In this document: one piece after another, positions 20,096 to 30,651 of the stretch
Layout of the letters: each line of letters begins with the position of its first letter
Position numbering within the stretch: the first letter of the stretch is position 1
Assembly (NCBI RefSeq): GCF_012516395.1
Contig: NZ_CP051206.1
Location: 1,656,501 to 1,720,500, forward strand
Direction of reading: 5' to 3'
Length of the DNA: 64,000 nt
Source: Dolichospermum flos-aquae CCAP 1403/13F
GTDB taxonomy: Bacteria > Cyanobacteriota > Cyanobacteriia > Cyanobacteriales > Nostocaceae
The notes under the pieces: generated by a model
Database searches by the model: none
What the model was told of the DNA's origin: nothing
What the model saw: only the letters and a program-made list of their open reading frames with translations
Translations under genes and position numbers: made by a program

Positions 20096-20824
20096 TCAAT
20101 GTCTCTTTCCAGCACCTAAATATAACTCTCCCACTTTCGGATCATTTAATAATTCTCTACCTGGTCCTGACATAGCATCTTTCCCTGATTCTAACACATA
20201 ACCACGATCTGCCATCTCTAAGGCTTTTCTGGCATTTTGTTCGACTAAAACTATCGCAGTTCCTGATGCTTTAATTTGTTTAATTTGCTCAAATACTTGA
20301 GTTACCAAAATGGGAGATAATGCGGCGGAAGGTTCATCTAAAAGCAGTAAACTGGGTTCTAACATTAATGCTTTTCCCATTGCTAACATTTGCCTTTCTC
20401 CACCGGAAAGAGTTCCCGCGCGTTGACGACGGCGATCGCTCAATCGGGGAAACATGGTGTATATTTTATCTTTAAGCGGTTTTAATGGGATATTCCTAAC
20501 AAAAGCCCCCATTTCTAAGTTTTCATCTATGGTTAAAGATGGAAAAACATTAGCAATTTGCGGAACATAAGACATTCCTTTGGCGACAATTTGATTTGAT
20601 TTTAAACCAATTAAATTTTTCTCTTTAAAGGTAATAGTTCCAGTATGAGGTGTTAAAAGTCCAAAAATAGTTTTTACTAAGGTGGATTTACCTGCACCAT
20701 TGGGACCAATGACTGTGACTAATTCTCCTGGTGCAATGTGAAAGTTGATACCTTGCAAAATATCTACATCTTTAATATATCCAGCGTGGACATTTTCTAC
20801 CTTTAATAAATAGTTATTAGTCAT
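20096..20824 (-). CDS. livF: Branched-chain/neutral amino acid ABC transporter ATPase (LivF/NatE type)
   Basis: 242 residues, one ABC ATPase domain: Walker A GPNGAGKST, Q-loop in SYVPQIANVFPSLT, signature LSGGERQMLAMGKA, Walker B LLLLDEPSAAL and the His-loop equivalent in VLVEQNARKAL. The short length, the DEPSAALSP string and the VEQNAR ending are typical of LivF of the hydrophobic amino acid uptake family; in Nostocales the corresponding gene is natE of the N-I permease. The other subunits (LivG, LivH, LivM, binding protein) are not in the window, in line with the scattered arrangement in this group. The exact substrate is inferred. Confidence 0.85.
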   Translation of the reverse strand: MTNNYLLKVENVHAGYIKDVDILQGINFHIAPGELVTVIGPNGAGKSTLVKTIFGLLTPHTGTITFKEKNLIGLKSNQIVAKGMSYVPQIANVFPSLTIDENLEMGAFVRNIPLKPLKDKIYTMFPRLSDRRRQRAGTLSGGERQMLAMGKALMLEPSLLLLDEPSAALSPILVTQVFEQIKQIKASGTAIVLVEQNARKALEMADRGYVLESGKDAMSGPGRELLNDPKVGELYLGAGKRH

Positions 20825-21409: not shown

Positions 21410-22615
21410 TTAACATCCTGCTTCAATGGTGTGTGAACCATCGGCTTTAATCCAGGCTATTTGGGCAATGTTGCGATCGCTTGCATATTGACGAATCGCC
21501 TCTGCGTCCCTATCTCCTAAGTCTAGTTCTACTCTAATTAAATCGGCAGAGTTACGTAATTTCTCAGCATAGGCAAAAGCCGCAGCTTCAGCGCCGGGGG
21601 TTTCTGGGACGACTAACCAATTACTAGCGGGGATATCCTGGGGTAATTGCTGATTTAATAGGAGAATTTGGTATAAATCATCAATATTCAGTTCAAAGCC
21701 GATACCGGGAATATTTTCTTTTTGGGGATGATATAAACCTAGTAATTGGTCATAACGACCACCACTTCCTAAAATCTGTGCTTGGGAATTTGTCTCACTA
21801 ACTACTTCAAAAACAATGCCTGTGTAGTAGTCAATAGTTTGAATTAGGCTCAAATCAAGGATTAAAGGAAATTTGCCGTCTAGTAATGCTACTAGGGATT
21901 TGAGGTTATTTATTGCCTCATGCTGGTCTGGTTCTAGATGTAAACTGCTGACTTTTTCTAAAACCTCTCGACTATCACCCCGCAAATCCAACATAATTTT
22001 AGCGCGTTGGCGGAGTTCTTCGCTCAAAGGTAAGGTATCAATAGCTATACTATCCAAGTTAGCGATCGCCCTGCGGACTTGATTTCTGATTTCCGGGGGA
22101 AAAGCATTGAGGAGGGAGCGTGTAATTCCCGCTTCCCCTAAAATTAACCGCCACCCTTGTAAACCCAATGCTGTTAAACAATCTGCGACTAATAGCAATA
22201 CTTCCGCATTGGCTAATAATCCCCCCGCACCCAGTAACTCCACCCCAGCTTGATAATACTCTTGCTGACGATTATGGCGGCCTTCCCAATTACGGCGAAA
22301 AACATTAGCGTTGTAATATAGTCGCTGGGGATAGGTCGCATCTGTCATGCGAGTCACCACTGTGCGGGCGATAGAAGCCGTCAATTCTGGACGCAATCCC
22401 AATTCTTCATTTTGACTATTTTGGAGTTGAATCACCATGTGACGCTGAATTGCTTCACCTGCCATGAGGGTATCCATTCGTTCCAGAGTTGAGGTGATAA
22501 TCCTGTGATATCCCCAACGTTGAAATACTTGTTCTAATCTATCTTCAATCCAGCGTTTTTGCGCCACATCTAAAGGTAGTAGATCTCTTGCTCCCGCTGC
22601 TGGTTGATACACCAT
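21410..22615 (-). CDS. hisZ: ATP phosphoribosyltransferase regulatory subunit
   Basis: 401 residues, histidyl-tRNA-synthetase-like catalytic core without tRNA-binding function. It begins with the AAGARDLLP motif, has GLRPELTASIARTV (class II motif 2 region), FRRNWEGRHNRQQEYYQAGVELLG and the HisRS-like IDYYTGIVFEV and LGSGGRYDQLL. HisZ pairs with the short form of HisG for the first step of histidine synthesis and its feedback control. Its ATG overlaps the stop of the upstream TPR frame by one base (TAATG), so translation may be coupled. The length is normal for cyanobacteria. Confidence 0.93.
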   Translation of the reverse strand: MVYQPAAGARDLLPLDVAQKRWIEDRLEQVFQRWGYHRIITSTLERMDTLMAGEAIQRHMVIQLQNSQNEELGLRPELTASIARTVVTRMTDATYPQRLYYNANVFRRNWEGRHNRQQEYYQAGVELLGAGGLLANAEVLLLVADCLTALGLQGWRLILGEAGITRSLLNAFPPEIRNQVRRAIANLDSIAIDTLPLSEELRQRAKIMLDLRGDSREVLEKVSSLHLEPDQHEAINNLKSLVALLDGKFPLILDLSLIQTIDYYTGIVFEVVSETNSQAQILGSGGRYDQLLGLYHPQKENIPGIGFELNIDDLYQILLLNQQLPQDIPASNWLVVPETPGAEAAAFAYAEKLRNSADLIRVELDLGDRDAEAIRQYASDRNIAQIAWIKADGSHTIEAGC

Positions 22616-22989
22616 TATTTTTTCTTCCCACCAAACAAACCACCAAACAAACCACTTTTTCCAGACTTATCTGGTTGCTTCTCTTCAGTTTTAGAAGCGG
22701 AACTCCCTTGAGAACCACTGTTTCTAATTCCTAAAGCTTGATCTACCTTGGGTTTCCATTCCAAAGCGATTTTTTCATTAGGATCTATTTTCAGGGCATT
22801 ATCAAAGTGAATTTTTGCCATTTTCAGTTGATTTTGCCGGAAATATACCATTGCGATTAAACTATGACAACGACTATTTTTCGGCTCTAACTTTAGGGCA
22901 TCCTGTAATTCTACTTTGGACTGGGACAATTGGTTTGTTTCTAGTAGTCTGTCAAATTTATTTTGACAGGTTTTTGGTAGTGCGGGCAA
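22615..22989 (-). pseudogene. C-terminal TPR remnant of a DnaJ-TPR protein, 5' end replaced by a MITE
   Basis: 124 codons. From about residue 17 the frame is TPR-like (ELQDALKLEPKNSRCHSLIA, then QNQLKMAKIHFDNALKIDP) and ends in GLFGGLFGGKKK. Both match the C-terminal part of a larger J-domain plus TPR protein that I recall upstream of hisZ in related cyanobacteria. The first 16 codons are encoded by a MITE (22941-23052), and no J domain is found beyond it. It may still be translated and may help translate hisZ through the TAATG overlap. The conclusion that it is truncated depends on that recalled longer homologue. Confidence 0.65.
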
Positions 22990-23052: not shown

Positions 23053-23493
23053 TTTACAGGGAATGATGGCAAGTTTGAAAACCCTCCAGTTGTCGGCATA
23101 AAATCTAATCCTGACTAAGCATGATTTAAAATTAGATAATTTATTTAAGCTCTTATAATCATATATCCATTTATGTAAATGCCCATGAGGCTAATTTTCA
23201 GTCTCATAACCCAAAGTTTGTGAAAACGAAACAAAATACTTGTTCTGTTTGTTATTGGTTTCTGAGAATAATGAATAGAAGATAGCAGAAATTTTCTATT
23301 TGGTGACAGTAATTTAGCCGATTTGGCGTGTATTTTTCGGCAATATTTAGTTCTAAATCTGGTAATTAAGTTTGCAGAAACTGACAATGAATTAACTAAT
23401 CACTCCTCGATATTCTATTAACAAGCGAGGGGGAAAACGGCAACCGAGCAGTAAACAACCCCAAGCGTCATAAAAATCAAGGAGAATTCAGTC
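23053..23493. other. Upstream region of the peptide cluster
   Basis: About 440 bases with no recognisable gene. The only longer frame (minus 23145-23387) has no protein family features. The region just before 23494 holds CAAGGAG, a good ribosome site for the first precursor peptide, and must include its promoter, which could not be assigned to a known regulator. Confidence 0.35.
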
Positions 23494-23733
23494 ATGTCTA
23501 ATTTATTTACCGCAGTATCTGTTGAGCAACAAGAAATGGTAGCTGGTGGAGTAATTGCTAACATTATCGCTGGGAGTGAAAACCTGCTTTACAGTGCTCG
23601 TCAGTTCACCCTTCTCAATACTGCTAGCGTAGGTCCTGGTGGTGTAACCACAGCGACTGGTATCGCAGATACAAGTATCACAAGTAATGCAGTGCGAGCC
23701 TTAGCAATTACACCAGTTAGCTTCCCCCTTTAG
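23494..23733 (+). CDS. Double-glycine leader peptide precursor 1 (bacteriocin-type)
   Basis: 79 residues. The leader MSNLFTAVSVEQQEMVAGG has the pattern of double-glycine leaders: hydrophobic residues at spaced positions, acidic/Gln stretch (VEQQE), then GG at 18-19. Cleavage would release a neutral 60-residue core starting VIANIIAGSE, rich in Ala, Thr, Ser and Val and with a GPGG turn. No cysteines, so no lanthionine or disulfide chemistry is possible. The maturation/export gene pair follows on the same strand. It resembles cyanobacterial bacteriocin-type precursors; activity is unknown. Confidence 0.75.
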   Translation: MSNLFTAVSVEQQEMVAGGVIANIIAGSENLLYSARQFTLLNTASVGPGGVTTATGIADTSITSNAVRALAITPVSFPL

Positions 23734-23960
23734 CAAATAATTTTAGGGTTAATTCTGCACTCTGATTCTACACAAAGAAGAAACAGCAAAGCAAATTAAT
23801 ATCCTAGAATATCTCGCTAAATTTCGTCTAGATTACTATCGAAAGATTTGTGTGTTCATTCTATAAAAATGGCACACAAATTTATTCTTTAATACTTGGA
23901 TTTATTTCCTAACATTTTACCCCTGAAATTATTTTTGCAGGAAAGATAAGAGGTTTTACC

Positions 23961-24290
23961 ATGTCTGATCATATAAAAACAAAAAAATCAGATTTATTCA
24001 TAAACTTATCAGAAAAAGAACAGGAGTCTATATCTGGAGGCAGATCATCTTCACCCTTTGAGATGTTTGATATATTCTACCAAACTACGAATATATACTC
24101 TAGGGGAAGTAATGAAATAAATATTTCTCAAGGAAACTTGGGCATATCTTCAAGAAATGAAGCTGAATATAGATTTTCTCAGACAACCTTTATTTTATCT
24201 TCATTGTTTGGTGGAGGAGGAGGTGGAAGTCGTCGCAATAACCGCAGACGAGGTCGTAGCTTATTCGCAAAACTATTTAGTTTTTTTTAG
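23961..24290 (+). CDS. Double-glycine leader peptide precursor 2, cationic core
   Basis: 109 residues. The 27-residue leader ends LSEKEQESISGG (GG at 26-27), again matching the double-glycine pattern. The 82-residue core starts RSSSPFEMFD and ends with a six-glycine run, an arginine-rich stretch (SRRNNRRRGR) and the hydrophobic SLFAKLFSFF. A flexible Gly hinge followed by a cationic amphipathic tail is a common layout of membrane-active peptides. No cysteines. It is 228 bases after precursor 1 and upstream of the exporter. The leader motif differs in sequence from precursor 1 but not in pattern. Function is inferred. Confidence 0.72.
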   Translation: MSDHIKTKKSDLFINLSEKEQESISGGRSSSPFEMFDIFYQTTNIYSRGSNEINISQGNLGISSRNEAEYRFSQTTFILSSLFGGGGGGSRRNNRRRGRSLFAKLFSFF

Positions 24291-24606
24291 CAGAGAAACA
24301 AAATCACAATCACTTCATTTTATCTTCCACTATTTAGATCATACAGCACTCGTTCATACCCATATTTCCGACTTCTGACATAAATTTATAATTTATGGAC
24401 ACAATAAATAAAAGAAGTCGGGGATCTTATCGTCTCACCTGAATTCTTACCTTGATTGTTCAATTTATCTCCTTAAATATTGTACATAATTATTAGGCAA
24501 AGTGCTGTATTCGCCAAGGCTTTACACCAATTAAATAACTATAAAAAAATCAATTTAATAACAAATAAATTGGCTTATTTTTCCAACTTTATATGGTTAA
24601 TTGCTA
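24291..24606. other. Intergenic before exporter, with nested hairpins
   Basis: It holds a split copy of palindrome P1 (CCGACTTCT 24368-24376 / AGAAGTCGG 24413-24421) with a second stem CATAAATT/AATTTATG in its loop (24379-24397). Positioned 3' of precursor 2, it could end the peptide transcript so that peptides and exporter are made in different amounts. No third precursor was found here. Confidence 0.5.
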
Positions 24607-26757
24607 ATGAAATACCAATTTGTTAAACAGCATAGTGAAGAAGACTGTGGTGCAGCTTGTTTAGCGGCAATTGCCAAATATTACGGTCAAACATTTACCA
24701 TTAGTCATATTCGGGAAGCCGTCGGAACAGGACAATTTGGAACTACTTTATTAGGATTGAAAAGAGGAGCAGAAATTCTGGGTTTTAAAGCCAATCCCGT
24801 GAAAACTTCTCCAGAAATATTAGATAAAATTAATGAAGCCCCTTTACCCGCGATTATTCATTGGCAAGGCAATCATTGGGTGATTTTATATGGTAAAAAA
24901 GGTAAAAAATTTCTGATTGCAGATCCAGCAGTGGGAATGCGTTATCTTTCTAAAGAAGATATCAAAGCAGCTTGGACAGATTGGTTATTATTATTAGTAG
25001 AACCAGACCCCCTTCGATTTTTTGCTCAAAAGCAAGATAAAGAAGGTGGTTTTTGGCGTTTCTTCCGACGAGTTTGGATTTATCGTGGTATTTTATTCCA
25101 AGCTTTACCTCTCAATTTAGTCTTGGGTTTACTGTCTTTAACTTCTCCTTTTCTGCTGCAAATTCTCACCGATGATGTATTAGTTAGAGGTGACATAAAA
25201 TTATTAACTACAGTAGTCATTGCTGTAGTAGTTATGAATATTATTTCTACTAGCCTTTCCTTTGTCCAGTCTAACTTAATTGCTCATTTTGCTCAACGAA
25301 TGCAATTAGGTCTAGTTTTGGAATTTGGGCGGCAAATTCTGCGATTACCATTAACTTATTATGAAACTCGTCGCAGTGGTGAAGTTGTGAGTCGGCTGCG
25401 AGACATTGACCAAATTAATCAATTAATTGCTCAAGTTGTTATTGGTTTACCCAGTCAATTTTTTATTGCCATAATTTCCTTGGGTTTCATGTTTTTCTAT
25501 AGCTGGAAACTTACCTTGGTAGCTTTAGTAATTTCTGTGGTCATGACCACATCTACCTTTATTTTCCAGCCCACATTACAACAAAAAACTAATGAACTCT
25601 TAATTACAGAAGCGGAAACCCAAGGGGTTTTAGTGGAAACCTTTAAAGGTGCATTAACTCTCAAAACAACCGCATCAAGAAGACAATTTTGGGATGAATT
25701 ACAAAATCGTTTTAATCGTCTAGCTAGGCTAACATTTCAGACGATGCAAATTGGGATTATTAATAATACCTTTTCAGGTTTTGTTTCTGGTATTGGTGGC
25801 GTAGTTTTACTCTGGTTTGGCGGCTATTTGGTAATTAACCCGGCTGAAAATATCAGTGTTGGGCAATTACTAGCATTTAATTCAATGAATGGTAATTTTA
25901 TATCTTTAATTAGTACAGTTATTAATTTTGTTGATGAATTTACCCGGGCTAAAACCGCTACTCGAAGGCTGACAGAAGTTATTGATGCCACTCCAGAAGA
26001 AGAAGATAATAGTAAAAAGCCATTTGTAGAAATCTCTAGTAATGCTGATATTATTTGTACAAATTTAACTTTTCATTATCCTGGTCGAATTGATTTATTA
26101 GAAGATTTTTCTTTAACGATTCCTGGAGGTAAGAATATTGCTCTAATTGGTAAATCTGGCTGTGGTAAAAGCACCTTAGCTAAATTAATTTCTAGTTTAT
26201 ATCAACTGCAATCTGGTAATATCCAGATTGGGATTTATAATCTCCAAGACCTTTCTTTAGAATGTCTCCGTCAACAAATAGTTCTTGTTCCTCAAGATGC
26301 TCATTTTTGGAATCGTTCTATTGTTGATAATTTCCGATTAGGAGCGCCTTATATTAGCTTTGAGCAGATTGTTCAAGCTTGTAAAATTTCTGGTGCTGAT
26401 GAATTTATAAGTAAGTTACCTGAGACATATCAAACTATTTTAGGTGAATTTGGTGCTAATATTTCTGGTGGACAAAGACAAAGATTAGCCATAGCTAGAG
26501 CCATTGTTACAGATCCACCAATTCTCATTTTAGATGAATCTACTGGTGGACTAGATCCAGTGAGTGAAGCCCAAGTTTTAGACCAATTATTTCAACATCG
26601 TCAAGGAAAAACAACGATTTTAATTACTCATAGACCCAAGGTGATTAGTCGGGCTGATTGGATTGTTTTAATAGATCAAGGTAGGTTGAAATTAGTAGGT
26701 TCTTTGGAAGATTTACGTAGCAAAACAGGAGACCATTTAGATTTTGTAATTCCTTAG
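24607..26757 (+). CDS. Peptidase-containing ABC exporter (C39 type, bacteriocin maturation/export)
   Basis: 716 residues from ATG 24607 (the frame also allows TTG 24601). Three parts: a C39 peptidase domain (1-130) with the complete triad Cys14 (EDCGAACLA), His90 (GNHWVILYG) and Asp106 (IADPA); a six-helix exporter domain (about 150-430); and an ABC ATPase (about 475-716) with Walker A GKSGCGKST, signature NISGGQRQRLA, Walker B ILILDEST and His-loop LITHRPK. Such proteins cut double-glycine leaders and pump the core out in one step. The two upstream GG precursors are its likely substrates, and the HlyD partner follows after 28 bases. Confidence 0.93.
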   Translation: MKYQFVKQHSEEDCGAACLAAIAKYYGQTFTISHIREAVGTGQFGTTLLGLKRGAEILGFKANPVKTSPEILDKINEAPLPAIIHWQGNHWVILYGKKGKKFLIADPAVGMRYLSKEDIKAAWTDWLLLLVEPDPLRFFAQKQDKEGGFWRFFRRVWIYRGILFQALPLNLVLGLLSLTSPFLLQILTDDVLVRGDIKLLTTVVIAVVVMNIISTSLSFVQSNLIAHFAQRMQLGLVLEFGRQILRLPLTYYETRRSGEVVSRLRDIDQINQLIAQVVIGLPSQFFIAIISLGFMFFYSWKLTLVALVISVVMTTSTFIFQPTLQQKTNELLITEAETQGVLVETFKGALTLKTTASRRQFWDELQNRFNRLARLTFQTMQIGIINNTFSGFVSGIGGVVLLWFGGYLVINPAENISVGQLLAFNSMNGNFISLISTVINFVDEFTRAKTATRRLTEVIDATPEEEDNSKKPFVEISSNADIICTNLTFHYPGRIDLLEDFSLTIPGGKNIALIGKSGCGKSTLAKLISSLYQLQSGNIQIGIYNLQDLSLECLRQQIVLVPQDAHFWNRSIVDNFRLGAPYISFEQIVQACKISGADEFISKLPETYQTILGEFGANISGGQRQRLAIARAIVTDPPILILDESTGGLDPVSEAQVLDQLFQHRQGKTTILITHRPKVISRADWIVLIDQGRLKLVGSLEDLRSKTGDHLDFVIP

Positions 26758-26785
26758 TTATTATTATTTATTGCTTTTGATAATT

Positions 26786-28186
26786 ATGCTTTACACTCAT
26801 AATCAAGAATTCGATTCTCTCAGTGAAAATGATAATTCACTTCCACCTATAAATCGGTGGACATCCTTAGCAGGTGTATTTCTGATTGGGACTGTTATTG
26901 CTAGTATTACTTTATCCTCATGGGTAAAATATAATGTAACAATCAAAGCTGCTGCTCTTGTTCGTCCCATAGGTGAAACTCGTGTAGTCCAACCCAAGAT
27001 AGAAGGGACTATTAAAAGTATTTTAGTCAAAGAAAATCAAATTGTTAAGCAAGGGGAAATAATCGCCATCTTAGATACTGATCAATTGCTAATTAAGAAA
27101 AGCCAATTAGAAGAAGGTATCAAACAAAGTAAATTACAAATAATGCAAATTTATGCTCAAAATGGGATTTTAAATAATCAAATAATTGCTGAGAAAAGAG
27201 TCGTAGAAAGAATTATCGCTGCTGCTAGAGAGGATTTGTTAAGAAATCAAAGAGAATATCAAGAACGAAGAATTAATACTGAAAATGAATTAATGACAGC
27301 GGAGGTAAATATTGAAAAAGAATTAGTAGATTTAGAAAAGGCTGAAGTTGATTTAGACTTTGCCAAAGTAGATCGGGATCGTTATGAGAAATTATCAAAA
27401 ATTGGTGCAATTGGCAACCGAGAATTTGAGCAAAAACAGCTAGTTGTCAAACAAATAAGTTTAACATTAGAAGCGGCAAAAAAAGCTGTTGATATCGCTC
27501 AAATAAAAATTAAATCTAATAAAGCTGCCATTAACCCCACTACAGCCATGGTGAAAATGGCAGAACAACGTATTGCTCAAGAAATTGCCAAAGGTGAAGC
27601 CAATATAGCAGTTTTAAATAAAGAAAGAGAAATCTTAATTCAGCGATTATTAGAAATACAAACTCAAATTAAACAATCACAAAAAGAACTTCAACAACTC
27701 GAAAATCAACGCAAAAACAGTATTATTATTTCCACAAGTAATGGAATTATATTTAAACTAAATTTACGCAATTCTGGTCAATTTGTGCGGGCTGGTGAAT
27801 CTATTGCTGAAGTTGTCCCTAATAATGCTCCTTTAGTAATTAAAGCCATGATCCCCACAGCAGAAATTAACAAAATTGCGATTAATCAAAAAGTCCAACT
27901 TCGTGTTGATGCTTGTCCCTATCCTGATTATGGAACTGCGAAAGGGATTGTTAAAAACATCGCTCCAGATGCAATTACACCTCAAAGCAAAGATTCAAAT
28001 ACTACAAATTCTTCTGGTATTAGCTATTTTGAAGCCGCAATTCAACCCGAAAGCTACTCATTTGGAAATAATGGTCGTCAGTGTCTACTGCAATCAGGAA
28101 TGAACGCTACAGCCGAAATTATTTCTAAGGAAGAAACAGCATTACAATTTATGTTGAGAAAAGCTAGATTAATTACTGATTTATGA
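26786..28186 (+). CDS. HlyD-type membrane fusion protein of the exporter
   Basis: 466 residues from ATG 26786 (TTG 26771 is an alternative). A short cytoplasmic N-terminus, one transmembrane helix (about 27-47), a biotinyl-lipoyl-like half (VQPKIEGTIKSILVKENQIV, with QGEIIAILDTDQL), a long coiled coil (about 100-320, repeated Gln/Glu/Lys heptads), the second lipoyl half (STSNGIIFKLNLRNSGQFVR) and a beta-barrel end. It bridges the inner-membrane exporter to an outer-membrane channel such as TolC, which is not in the window. It starts 28 bases after the exporter, so they are one operon. Confidence 0.9.
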   Translation: MLYTHNQEFDSLSENDNSLPPINRWTSLAGVFLIGTVIASITLSSWVKYNVTIKAAALVRPIGETRVVQPKIEGTIKSILVKENQIVKQGEIIAILDTDQLLIKKSQLEEGIKQSKLQIMQIYAQNGILNNQIIAEKRVVERIIAAAREDLLRNQREYQERRINTENELMTAEVNIEKELVDLEKAEVDLDFAKVDRDRYEKLSKIGAIGNREFEQKQLVVKQISLTLEAAKKAVDIAQIKIKSNKAAINPTTAMVKMAEQRIAQEIAKGEANIAVLNKEREILIQRLLEIQTQIKQSQKELQQLENQRKNSIIISTSNGIIFKLNLRNSGQFVRAGESIAEVVPNNAPLVIKAMIPTAEINKIAINQKVQLRVDACPYPDYGTAKGIVKNIAPDAITPQSKDSNTTNSSGISYFEAAIQPESYSFGNNGRQCLLQSGMNATAEIISKEETALQFMLRKARLITDL

Positions 28187-28264: not shown

Positions 28265-28599
28265 GGTTGTTCGTATTTTTTATTCCCATTTACCAGAATT
28301 AGAACATCTTTACAATAGCTTTAAGTTTTTAATGCCATGTAAATGCTCATCTTTTCACAAAAACCTTATGTCAATCTGGCACTTTTATTGGCAAGTATTT
28401 TCTATTACTTAATATCTCCTATAGTACCAGGCAATATATCTGTCACGACTCTTATTAAACCTAAATTATTGTTAAATAAACATATTTATTATGATTATAT
28501 ATCAACTTCATAATCTCAGTATTTTCTAATAAATTTCATGGAATTAGCGTGACACCCCCCATAGACAATAAGTTATAACTAAGAGAATCTAGGAAAAAT

Positions 28600-28824: not shown

Positions 28825-29520
28825 TTGGGACAATTATTAGATATGCAACAAGTTTCATCGGAAAAAACAATTTTAAAATTCATCGTTATTGATGATCACG
28901 AATCAGTTTTAAATGGAACAGTGGAAATATTAAGGAAAAACTATCCTAGTGCTGAATTTAATTCGGCTACAAATGCTAGTTATGCTTTTGAGCAAGTTAT
29001 TAGTTACCAACCTGACTTAGTAGTTATGGATCTTTCCATACCAGAAAAACCGGAAATGATAGCGAGGGTTGATACAGGTATTCAACTTTTGAAGGTTTTA
29101 ATGGAAAATTATCCTCATTTAAATTTTGTTATTCAAAGCGCCCATGTGAGAACATTAGTCCGCATTCGTCCTTATCTTGATAATCATCAAGGAGGCTTGA
29201 CTATTGCTGATAAAAGTCTTTCTACTCCAGAAATGTTAACTAGAGTTGATTGGGCATTACAGGGATTAACCCATACAAAAGACATCAAAGGAATTCACTC
29301 AGGTTTAGAGGTGAAACCAGAATGGTTGAAAGTCCTGAACTTAGCCTTTGAAGCAGGATTACAAGATAAAGCAATTGCTGAAAAGATGTGCATTTCTGAA
29401 CGCATGGTACGTCATTATTGGAATAAATTACAGGACGCTTTAAATATTTATCCAGAAGCAGGCAAAAACATTCGCATTCAAACAGAAATTAAAGCTAGAT
29501 ATGAAGGATTAATTGATTAA
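28825..29520 (+). CDS. LuxR/NarL-type response regulator
   Basis: 231 residues from TTG 28825, supported by AGGAG eight bases upstream; ATG 28843 is the alternative. The receiver domain (about 16-150) has the acidic pair in FIVIDDHES, phospho-acceptor Asp69 (LVVMDLSIP) and Lys in IADKSLS. The C-terminal helix-turn-helix (GLQDKAIAEKMCISERMVRHYWNKLQ) is of the LuxR class. It is 237 bases upstream of a histidine kinase on the same strand, with a MITE between them; the two are probably partners. Targets are unknown. Nearness to the peptide exporter suggests, but does not show, control of that operon. Confidence 0.85.
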   Translation: MGQLLDMQQVSSEKTILKFIVIDDHESVLNGTVEILRKNYPSAEFNSATNASYAFEQVISYQPDLVVMDLSIPEKPEMIARVDTGIQLLKVLMENYPHLNFVIQSAHVRTLVRIRPYLDNHQGGLTIADKSLSTPEMLTRVDWALQGLTHTKDIKGIHSGLEVKPEWLKVLNLAFEAGLQDKAIAEKMCISERMVRHYWNKLQDALNIYPEAGKNIRIQTEIKARYEGLID

Positions 29521-29757: not shown

Positions 29758-30651
29758 ATGCAAACTCAAATTTGGAAAAAACTACAACCAGAAAATTATT
29801 TTGGTTATGGAGAAAAGTTATCAGAAAATATCATGACTATTTTGAGTCTAGTCTTGATTAGTCATTTTTTGTTAACTAGGAATTCTTCAGTTGCCTTAAT
29901 ACCAGCAATTTTTTTGATGGTTATTAATTGCATCAGTATCATAGCTTTATATCAATATCACCAAACAATTAAAGCTGGGATTAAATCTCGCCAAAACATG
30001 ATTGAAACTAAATTTGAAACAATTCATAATGGACCATTACAAAGTCTGGCTAGAGTTTTAAAGCTAGTTAAAGGGCAAGAATTACCAATTAATAACTTGC
30101 TACCTTTAATAGAAAAAGAACTTGAAGAACTAAATCAAGAATTACGAGGAATATCTAATTTTTGGCAACAAGAAACTCTTAATCAAGATACTAGCCTTTA
30201 TCTAAGAAATAGTCTAGTCATAGATTTGCAAAACCCTTTACCTGAAATCCTCTATCAAGTCTATAGCCATACCTTAGAACGAGATTTTCCTGGCTTTAAA
30301 ACCCTGAAACTAAAAATTCACAATTTTGAAACTATTAATGAAAGCAATTTGAGTATTGAAAATAAGCGCAGACTTTGCAGATTCTTAGAAGAAGCCTTAT
30401 GTAATGTTGGTAAACACGCTACAGGAGTCACCTGTTTGAAAGTTACTTATTCGGCTTCTAAAGAATATGCTACTCTAAGCATTATGGATAATGGTTTAGG
30501 AATTAACTCATCAAAAGAAGGTTGGGGAACAAAACAATTTAAAAATTTAGCCCAACAAATTAAAGGTAAATTTAGGCGAGTTTCCCTTGATCCTCAAGGT
30601 ACTCTTTGTGAATTATCTTGGCCTTTAGCAAATTCTTTTTGGTGGCAATAA
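29758..30651 (+). CDS. Membrane histidine kinase (HisKA_3/HATPase type)
   Basis: 297 residues. Two hydrophobic helices (about 24-41 and 45-66) with only a few residues between them, so there is almost no extracellular sensor loop. The dimerisation helix carries His90 in ETIHNGPLQSLARVLK, which matches the HisKA_3 H-box. The ATPase domain has the N-box EEALCNVGKHA and G-box MDNGLGI, with a second glycine stretch EGWGTKQFKNL. The signal must be membrane-linked or cytoplasmic. It probably phosphorylates the LuxR-type regulator upstream. Confidence 0.85.
   Translation: MQTQIWKKLQPENYFGYGEKLSENIMTILSLVLISHFLLTRNSSVALIPAIFLMVINCISIIALYQYHQTIKAGIKSRQNMIETKFETIHNGPLQSLARVLKLVKGQELPINNLLPLIEKELEELNQELRGISNFWQQETLNQDTSLYLRNSLVIDLQNPLPEILYQVYSHTLERDFPGFKTLKLKIHNFETINESNLSIENKRRLCRFLEEALCNVGKHATGVTCLKVTYSASKEYATLSIMDNGLGINSSKEGWGTKQFKNLAQQIKGKFRRVSLDPQGTLCELSWPLANSFWWQ

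Follow-up and report, generated by a model that had tools for sequence, protein, structure and literature searches.

Which peptides does a C39 exporter handle when two small double-glycine genes with different cores stand in front of it, and do the two belong together? The question arises from a 64,000-nucleotide stretch of Dolichospermum flos-aquae CCAP 1403/13F (contig NZ_CP051206.1, forward strand, positions 1,656,501 to 1,720,500), here called the window, whose own numbering we use. From 23494 to 28186 it holds four genes in the same direction, encoding precursor peptide 1, precursor peptide 2, an ATP-binding cassette (ABC) exporter with a C39 peptidase domain, and an HlyD-type adaptor. 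We found that the core of peptide 2 is a conserved family that appears new and that it accompanies the family of peptide 1, named CTB, across the order. Peptide 1 joins a nearly fixed upstream region and leader to a core that differs extremely between species. On this basis we propose, with about even confidence, that the locus co-exports unmodified peptides, one constant and one variable, which perhaps form an extracellular assembly like that of the EbfG proteins of Synechococcus elongatus PCC 7942.

Precursors and exporter

A preliminary description of the window had reported two double-glycine precursors, and both were confirmed where it had placed them. Peptide 1 (23494..23733, plus strand, 79 residues; leader 23494-23550, variable core 23551-23730) belongs to NF038167, the NCBIfam model called CTB family bacteriocin, with 53.1 bits against a cut-off of 32 (E 2.7e-14). 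Its leader ends in QEMVAGG, and its 60-residue core is neutral as described earlier, with two Lys or Arg and two Asp or Glu. Peptide 2 (23961..24290, plus strand, 109 residues; leader 23961-24041, core 24042-24287) has a leader ending in QESISGG and an 82-residue core with 11 Lys or Arg and five Asp or Glu, which closes with a Gly hinge, an Arg-rich stretch, and a hydrophobic tail. It scores 27.6 bits against NF038167, below the cut-off, over residues 1-45, i.e., the leader and the first core residues. By sequence, then, the leaders of the two peptides are related and the cores are not, so that the earlier description of the precursors as unrelated holds for the cores alone. Neither core contains cysteine.

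The exporter (24607..26757, plus strand, 716 residues from its ATG) comprises Peptidase_C39 (PF03412), ABC_membrane (PF00664), and ABC_tran (PF00005) domains. Its C39 active site is complete: Cys14, His90, and Asp106, noted previously and presumably the catalytic residues, are joined by Gln8, which we take to be the oxyanion Gln. It is of the short type, with the C39 domain beginning at residue 2 and no N-terminal CAP_ED domain. C39 exporters cleave after Gly-Gly and export the released peptide. The adaptor (26789..28186, plus strand, 465 residues; HlyD_3 and Biotin_lipoyl_2 domains) starts 31 bases after the exporter stop, not 28 as first given. The earlier statement that no modifying enzyme lies nearby was borne out among the scanned flanking genes, and both kinds of leader are kept beside C39 exporters in other Nostocales. 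This conservation gives good support, at the level of sequence, to export of the double-glycine peptides in unmodified form, and the condition on leaders that the preliminary description had named as refuting this reading does not apply.

Peptide 2 defines a conserved family

We collected relatives of peptide 2 from 28 named loci plus further genomes. Among the 19 named loci outside Dolichospermum, 12 carry it (in Nostoc, Scytonema, Tolypothrix, Richelia, and HT-58-2), each with one copy directly upstream of the exporter or, at L065, where no exporter was found, of HlyD. No cluster in the loci examined has more than one copy. An alignment of 23 sequences left Leu12, Phe13, Gln21, Glu22, Gly27, and Tyr70 invariant, and most of these sequences end in a Gly- and Arg-rich stretch followed by a hydrophobic one. 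The peptide-2 core alone matched no Pfam or NCBIfam family. When 31 family cores were compared with NF038167, two gave weak matches (best E 0.0036), and eight of the rows compared still hold 1 to 17 leader residues. A PDB sequence search with the family returned no related solved structure. We conclude that the core represents a conserved family without a curated Pfam or NCBIfam entry, and it looks new.

A core-only profile built from layout-1 seeds was run against 10,166 reading-frame segments from 75 HlyD loci, which are all HlyD matches down to E 9.1e-100. It gave 21 matches, six of which are its own seeds (the window, L083, L085, L088, and the Richelia contigs L137 and L147). Nineteen lie on the same strand within 320 bp of a C39 exporter, one lies at 1.9 kb, and the contig of the last showed no exporter. 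The genes occur in two orders, CTB, peptide 2, exporter, and HlyD, as in the window, or CTB, HlyD, exporter, and peptide 2. The second order is also found in the same genome (5.22 Mb, seven C39 matches), where another CTB cluster (G000:C1:485183-492408, L114) comes with an exporter and adaptor of its own, a relative of peptide 2 located 3' of that exporter, and further double-glycine peptides, some of them cysteine rich.

Within the genus sample, 16 genomes of the Dolichospermum/Anabaena/Aphanizomenon group, an orthologous HlyD is present in every genome, and peptide 2 adjoins the orthologous exporter in 11. Four others (G004, G005, G010, and G015) have other double-glycine peptides at that exporter and peptide 2 solely in a second cluster; G007 is too fragmented for the position to be judged. 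The core of peptide 2 retains 56% protein identity with a median ratio of nonsynonymous to synonymous substitution rates (dN/dS) of 0.56 in 11 genus genomes. Protein identity in 14 of the genomes is 84 to 87% for the exporter and 77 to 81% for HlyD. One genome (G003, locus L089) departs from this, with an exporter 97% identical to that of the window, an HlyD at 80%, and a peptide-2 tail nearly that of the window, so that recombination inside the cluster between species is likely.

Peptide 2 occurs with CTB peptides

To place the two peptides in the order, we surveyed 291 genomes and called CTB peptides by NF038167 at an E of ≤1e-7. CTB peptides were called in 29 genomes and the peptide-2 core in 27 (28 with a full-length profile), and all 27 fall within the 29. 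The two CTB genomes lacking a core match are G273 and G058, the latter of which matches the full-length peptide-2 profile. Among the 77 genomes with HlyD (E ≤ 1e-90), peptide 2 was found in 26 of 26 with CTB and in none of 51 without. Within the family to which the window belongs, both peptides are present in 21 of 29 genomes, neither in seven, and CTB alone in one. A typed CTB place is found within 5 kb for 33 of 41 peptide-2 core places and within 8 kb for 36; of the remainder, four have none on their contig and one is separated from it by 407 kb. Locus by locus, CTB-type peptides are held by 24 of the 75 HlyD loci, 19 of these also with peptide 2, and just one of the other 51 has peptide 2. 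This co-occurrence over 291 genomes supports the conclusion that the two peptides belong together.

A fixed block is joined to variable cores

We compared the surroundings of peptide 1 in 13 of the 16 genus genomes, with one copy from each. The remaining three were left out, G011 since the search pattern missed its leader and G004 and G007 since their clusters are split or cut by contig ends. DNA identity was 87% over the 150 bp upstream and 91% over the leader, as opposed to 27% over the core and 34% over the 200 bases after it; shuffled controls gave 20% for the core and 22% for the downstream stretch. In 25-base bins, the per-position majority was 0.90 to 0.96 from about -175/-180 to the end of the leader and about 0.4 to 0.6 from -450 to -250. 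The conservation stops sharply at the Gly-Gly codons, i.e., at the cleavage site. At the protein level, the leader is 88% identical and the core 14%. The core of peptide 1 gave a median dN/dS of 1.13 with dS saturated in 32 of 78 pairs; with cores that can barely be aligned, this value has no clear meaning.

The upstream half of this block, defined by its conservation across the 13 genomes (23309..23399, plus strand), is probably the promoter region of peptide 1; promoter and terminator scans returned fewer hits than shuffled expectation (20 versus 24.3 and 2 versus 3.1, respectively). The block is single copy in the genome of the window. Copy number of peptide 1 varies elsewhere, with arrays of up to nine. 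One such array, of nine similar CTB genes, lies at 3555-6799 of L072 in Scytonema sp. NIES-4073. Four loci (L080, L081, L082, and L204) have peptides with CTB leaders and Asn- and Ile-rich cores that may be amyloid prone.

The 94 bases before the peptide-1 start codon (23400..23493, plus strand) appear to form an RNA structure in which the ribosome-binding site is paired, as judged by RNAalifold and a covariance model. From a plain MAFFT alignment of the 13 leaders (A3), RNAalifold predicted 22 pairs, three of them with a change on both sides, compared to 0.8 in shuffles; 14 of 500 shuffles reached three. The predicted outer helix pairs CUCCU.GAU with AUC.AGGAG and would mask the Shine-Dalgarno sequence AAGGAG. 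On a structure-fitted alignment (A5), 14 of the 22 pairs change on both sides versus 5.9 in shuffles, with 0 of 500 shuffles reaching 14, although A5 is biased towards the structure and one slid version gave 13 two-sided pairs. Folding-energy z-scores were unremarkable (-0.63 to -1.94 in four stretches), and the case for a structured RNA thus rests on covariation and position.

The position is consistent. Searched through 52 sources (870 kb), the covariance model gave 32 matches at an E of ≤0.01, spread over 23 of the sources, of which 31 are followed after 0 to 26 bases by the start of a precursor of this type (in one case with Gly-Ala replacing Gly-Gly) and the remaining one stands before a decayed precursor leader with an in-frame stop. 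At an E of ≤1 there were 34, the weakest of which (L075, E 0.89) is not before a precursor. Whole genus genomes gave 21 matches in 15 of 16 genomes, all at such precursors, and more distant matches were found in other family genomes and at loci of Nostoc sp. T09, Richelia sinica, and Sphaerospermopsis. No element was found at an E of ≤1 in the second-layout clusters L114, L117, L119, L121, L126, L132, and L133, and Rfam had no match to the 5' leader RNA. This RNA probably acts as a gate on the translation of peptide 1.

Predicted structures

AlphaFold2 modeled each core as a long beta-hairpin. That of peptide 2 spans residues 34-57 and 60-81, with a predicted local distance difference test (pLDDT) score of 77 to 83 over residues 41-80 and 57 over residues 31-40. 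That of peptide 1 spans residues 31-47 and 50-66 (pLDDT 59 to 77 over residues 31-60 and 53 over residues 61-70), and its predicted turn falls at a recurrent Gly-Pro-x-Gly. A resemblance to pore-forming stems in Foldseek was non-significant, and we did not take it as evidence of a pore.

Comparison with known systems

By gene content and exporter type, the locus is a group III double-glycine cluster in the scheme of Wang, Fewer, and Sivonen for cyanobacterial bacteriocin clusters (2011; PMC3140520). As in the accessible account of group III, it has a short C39 ABC exporter with HlyD and several small double-glycine precursors, and it has neither LanM nor a peptidase-less second ABC transporter. 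A constant partner peptide, a fixed upstream-leader block, and a 5' RNA element set it apart from group III as described in that account. The cluster type is therefore already known. What looks new is the peptide-2 family and its association with CTB peptides, together with the fixed block and the structured 5' RNA. No description of these was found in the literature searched, which included few subscription papers and no supplements.

The comparison system that has been studied by experiment is EbfG1-4 of S. elongatus PCC 7942. According to the parts of the papers available, these proteins are secreted by a C39 exporter (PteB) and needed for biofilm (PMC4997328), and EbfG1-3 form amyloid while EbfG4 is found on the cell surface (PMC9981879). 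Table 1 of PMC3140520 lists one group III cluster for this strain, which may or may not be the ebfG cluster. Both systems would thus pair small double-glycine proteins with a C39 peptidase transporter, and the EbfG peptides, three amyloid and one at the surface, are likewise unlike in behavior. The likeness is drawn from export type, and it sets EbfG proteins beside peptides known from their genes alone. CTB genes are expressed, since those of Nodularia are induced under phosphate limitation, as far as the accessible text of PMC9846622 describes, and the literature searched in part reported no tested activity for CTB peptides.

A proposed pair of a constant and a variable peptide

In the model that we propose, the C39 domain would cleave both precursors after Gly-Gly, and the ABC-HlyD pair, together with an outer-membrane channel encoded elsewhere, would export the unmodified 60- and 82-residue cores, as is inferred from the family. 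Peptide 2 would be the constant part, with its Arg-rich and hydrophobic tail possibly anchoring it to the membrane or cell surface. By analogy with EbfG1-4 and PteB, the CTB peptides may supply the variable part of a beta-rich extracellular assembly that serves as matrix or in adhesion or self-recognition. We more tentatively suggest, and with clear doubt, that CTB peptides have peptide 2 as their permanent partner and that lineages swap CTB cores as cassettes behind a fixed promoter, Shine-Dalgarno-masking RNA, and leader, which would give each lineage a surface or matrix identity. Such an identity would serve self-recognition or targeted antagonism.

In bloom-forming and other heterocystous cyanobacteria, CTB peptides carry the annotation of bacteriocins. 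Should they depend on a constant partner, assays of one peptide at a time would not reveal what they do. An unchanging leader with exchanged cores, together with a ribosome-binding site that may be masked, also offers a testable handle on how neighboring strains might differ in matrix, recognition, or inhibition.

Several observations weigh against co-export into a shared assembly. The two structure models have low overall confidence (mean pLDDT 62.3 and 54.7), and neither gave a significant match in Foldseek (E 0.13 or worse). The mature EbfG1-4 proteins have no homology to proteins of other cyanobacteria, according to the part of PMC4997328 available, and hypervariable cores also fit antagonism. 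The pairing is looser per locus, with five of the 24 CTB loci (L079, L080, L081, L141, and L148) lacking peptide 2. It is also lacking from seven of the 19 named loci outside Dolichospermum (L060-L063, L069, L076, and L077), five of which have CTB peptides. Whole-genome searches for those seven found a peptide-2 core elsewhere in five (one weak and with a stop) and none for L069, which is without CTB, or L077, where CTB is present. The pairing further depends on the CTB cut-off, because three genomes (G126, G156, and G290) carry double-glycine peptides of the same leader type with no CTB match at 1e-7 and no peptide 2. Related genomes are not independent, so that Fisher p-values overstate the pairing, and the survey counts are among the limited number of candidates scored per genome search. 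For the RNA element, RNAalifold predicted no pair on A5 and six pairs only on a wider MAFFT alignment (A6).

Antagonism between strains is the main rival to extracellular assembly. In a bacteriocin system, the CTB peptides would be directed against close relatives, killing or inhibiting them, with peptide 2 as a constant helper such as a pore or receptor-binding partner. We consider this rather unlikely as an account of the locus. An arms race would be expected to produce the extreme difference between species in core 1 behind a constant leader, and NCBI names the CTB family a bacteriocin; however, no immunity gene was recognized among the flanking genes, peptide 2 is conserved, and the numbers of the two peptides are unequal. 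Both hairpin models resemble the stems of pore-forming proteins, but at the non-significant level given above, and long hairpins match stems by shape alone. The preliminary description had raised a two-peptide bacteriocin, and its suggestion that the peptides form a pair agrees with their co-occurrence. Class IIb bacteriocins are made of two unmodified double-glycine peptides that share one C39 exporter. Membership of that class finds no support at the present locus: its genes are not 1:1, given arrays of up to nine, it shows no recognizable immunity gene, its host has a Gram-negative envelope, and its cores are predicted to be long beta-hairpins. In addition, the double-glycine/C39 system studied by experiment is, in the accessible parts of its papers, a biofilm matrix system.

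The same description had offered a signal as the other possibility, which would be sensed through the adjacent response regulator (28825..29520, plus strand; Response_reg, 36.4 bits) and small histidine kinase (29758..30651, plus strand; HATPase_c, 22.4 bits, below the cut-off of 26.4). At 20 of 24 places, the regulator does follow the orthologous HlyD (at least 52% identity) at a distance of no more than 1.4 kb; at the other four, the G007 copy is cut by the contig end, the G013 contig ends there, and both G213 loci have no regulator. This favors a signal weakly, but the regulator family occurs in 77 of the 291 genomes, and 20 regulator loci away from the cluster showed no C39 exporter and one HlyD fragment, while 16 kept the kinase nearby. 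Of these 20 loci, 14 have at least 7 kb upstream of the regulator and six are cut by contig ends at less than 3 kb. No such regulator was seen at loci with the second gene order, the kinase lacks, by sequence, any sizeable sensor or extracellular domain, and core 1 varies too much to be matched by a fixed receptor. We find a signal very improbable. The two genes are conserved neighbors with a putative functional link, and we set the pair aside as a peptide receptor since its family also occurs away from exporters. It is also improbable, if somewhat less so, that the peptides are independent cargoes that share an exporter and co-occur through shared cluster ancestry. One exporter may serve unlike double-glycine peptides, such as the cysteine-containing ones of the second cluster, the genomes are related, and some clusters have CTB without peptide 2. 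Independence sits poorly with the window's own family, where all but one genome has both peptides or neither, and with the absence of peptide 2 from all 51 genomes with HlyD but no CTB.

Flanking genes

The scanned flanking genes encode a histidyl-tRNA-synthetase-like protein, a ferredoxin, an ABC ATPase, a tetratricopeptide repeat (TPR) protein, a metallo-beta-lactamase-fold protein that we take to be RNase Z, an AhpC/TSA protein, a class V aminotransferase, and TamB. The ABC ATPase (20096-20824) consists of an ATPase domain alone and is not part of the cluster. Between HlyD and the response regulator lies a 56-codon frame (28343-28513); a similar stretch is present in 12 of 15 genus loci, and the frame is broken into two pieces in L086 and L087. 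The TPR protein (22615-22989) has 124 residues, compared to 310 in a relative (L204, 511-1443), and it starts in the window in a GC-rich, repeat-like stretch.

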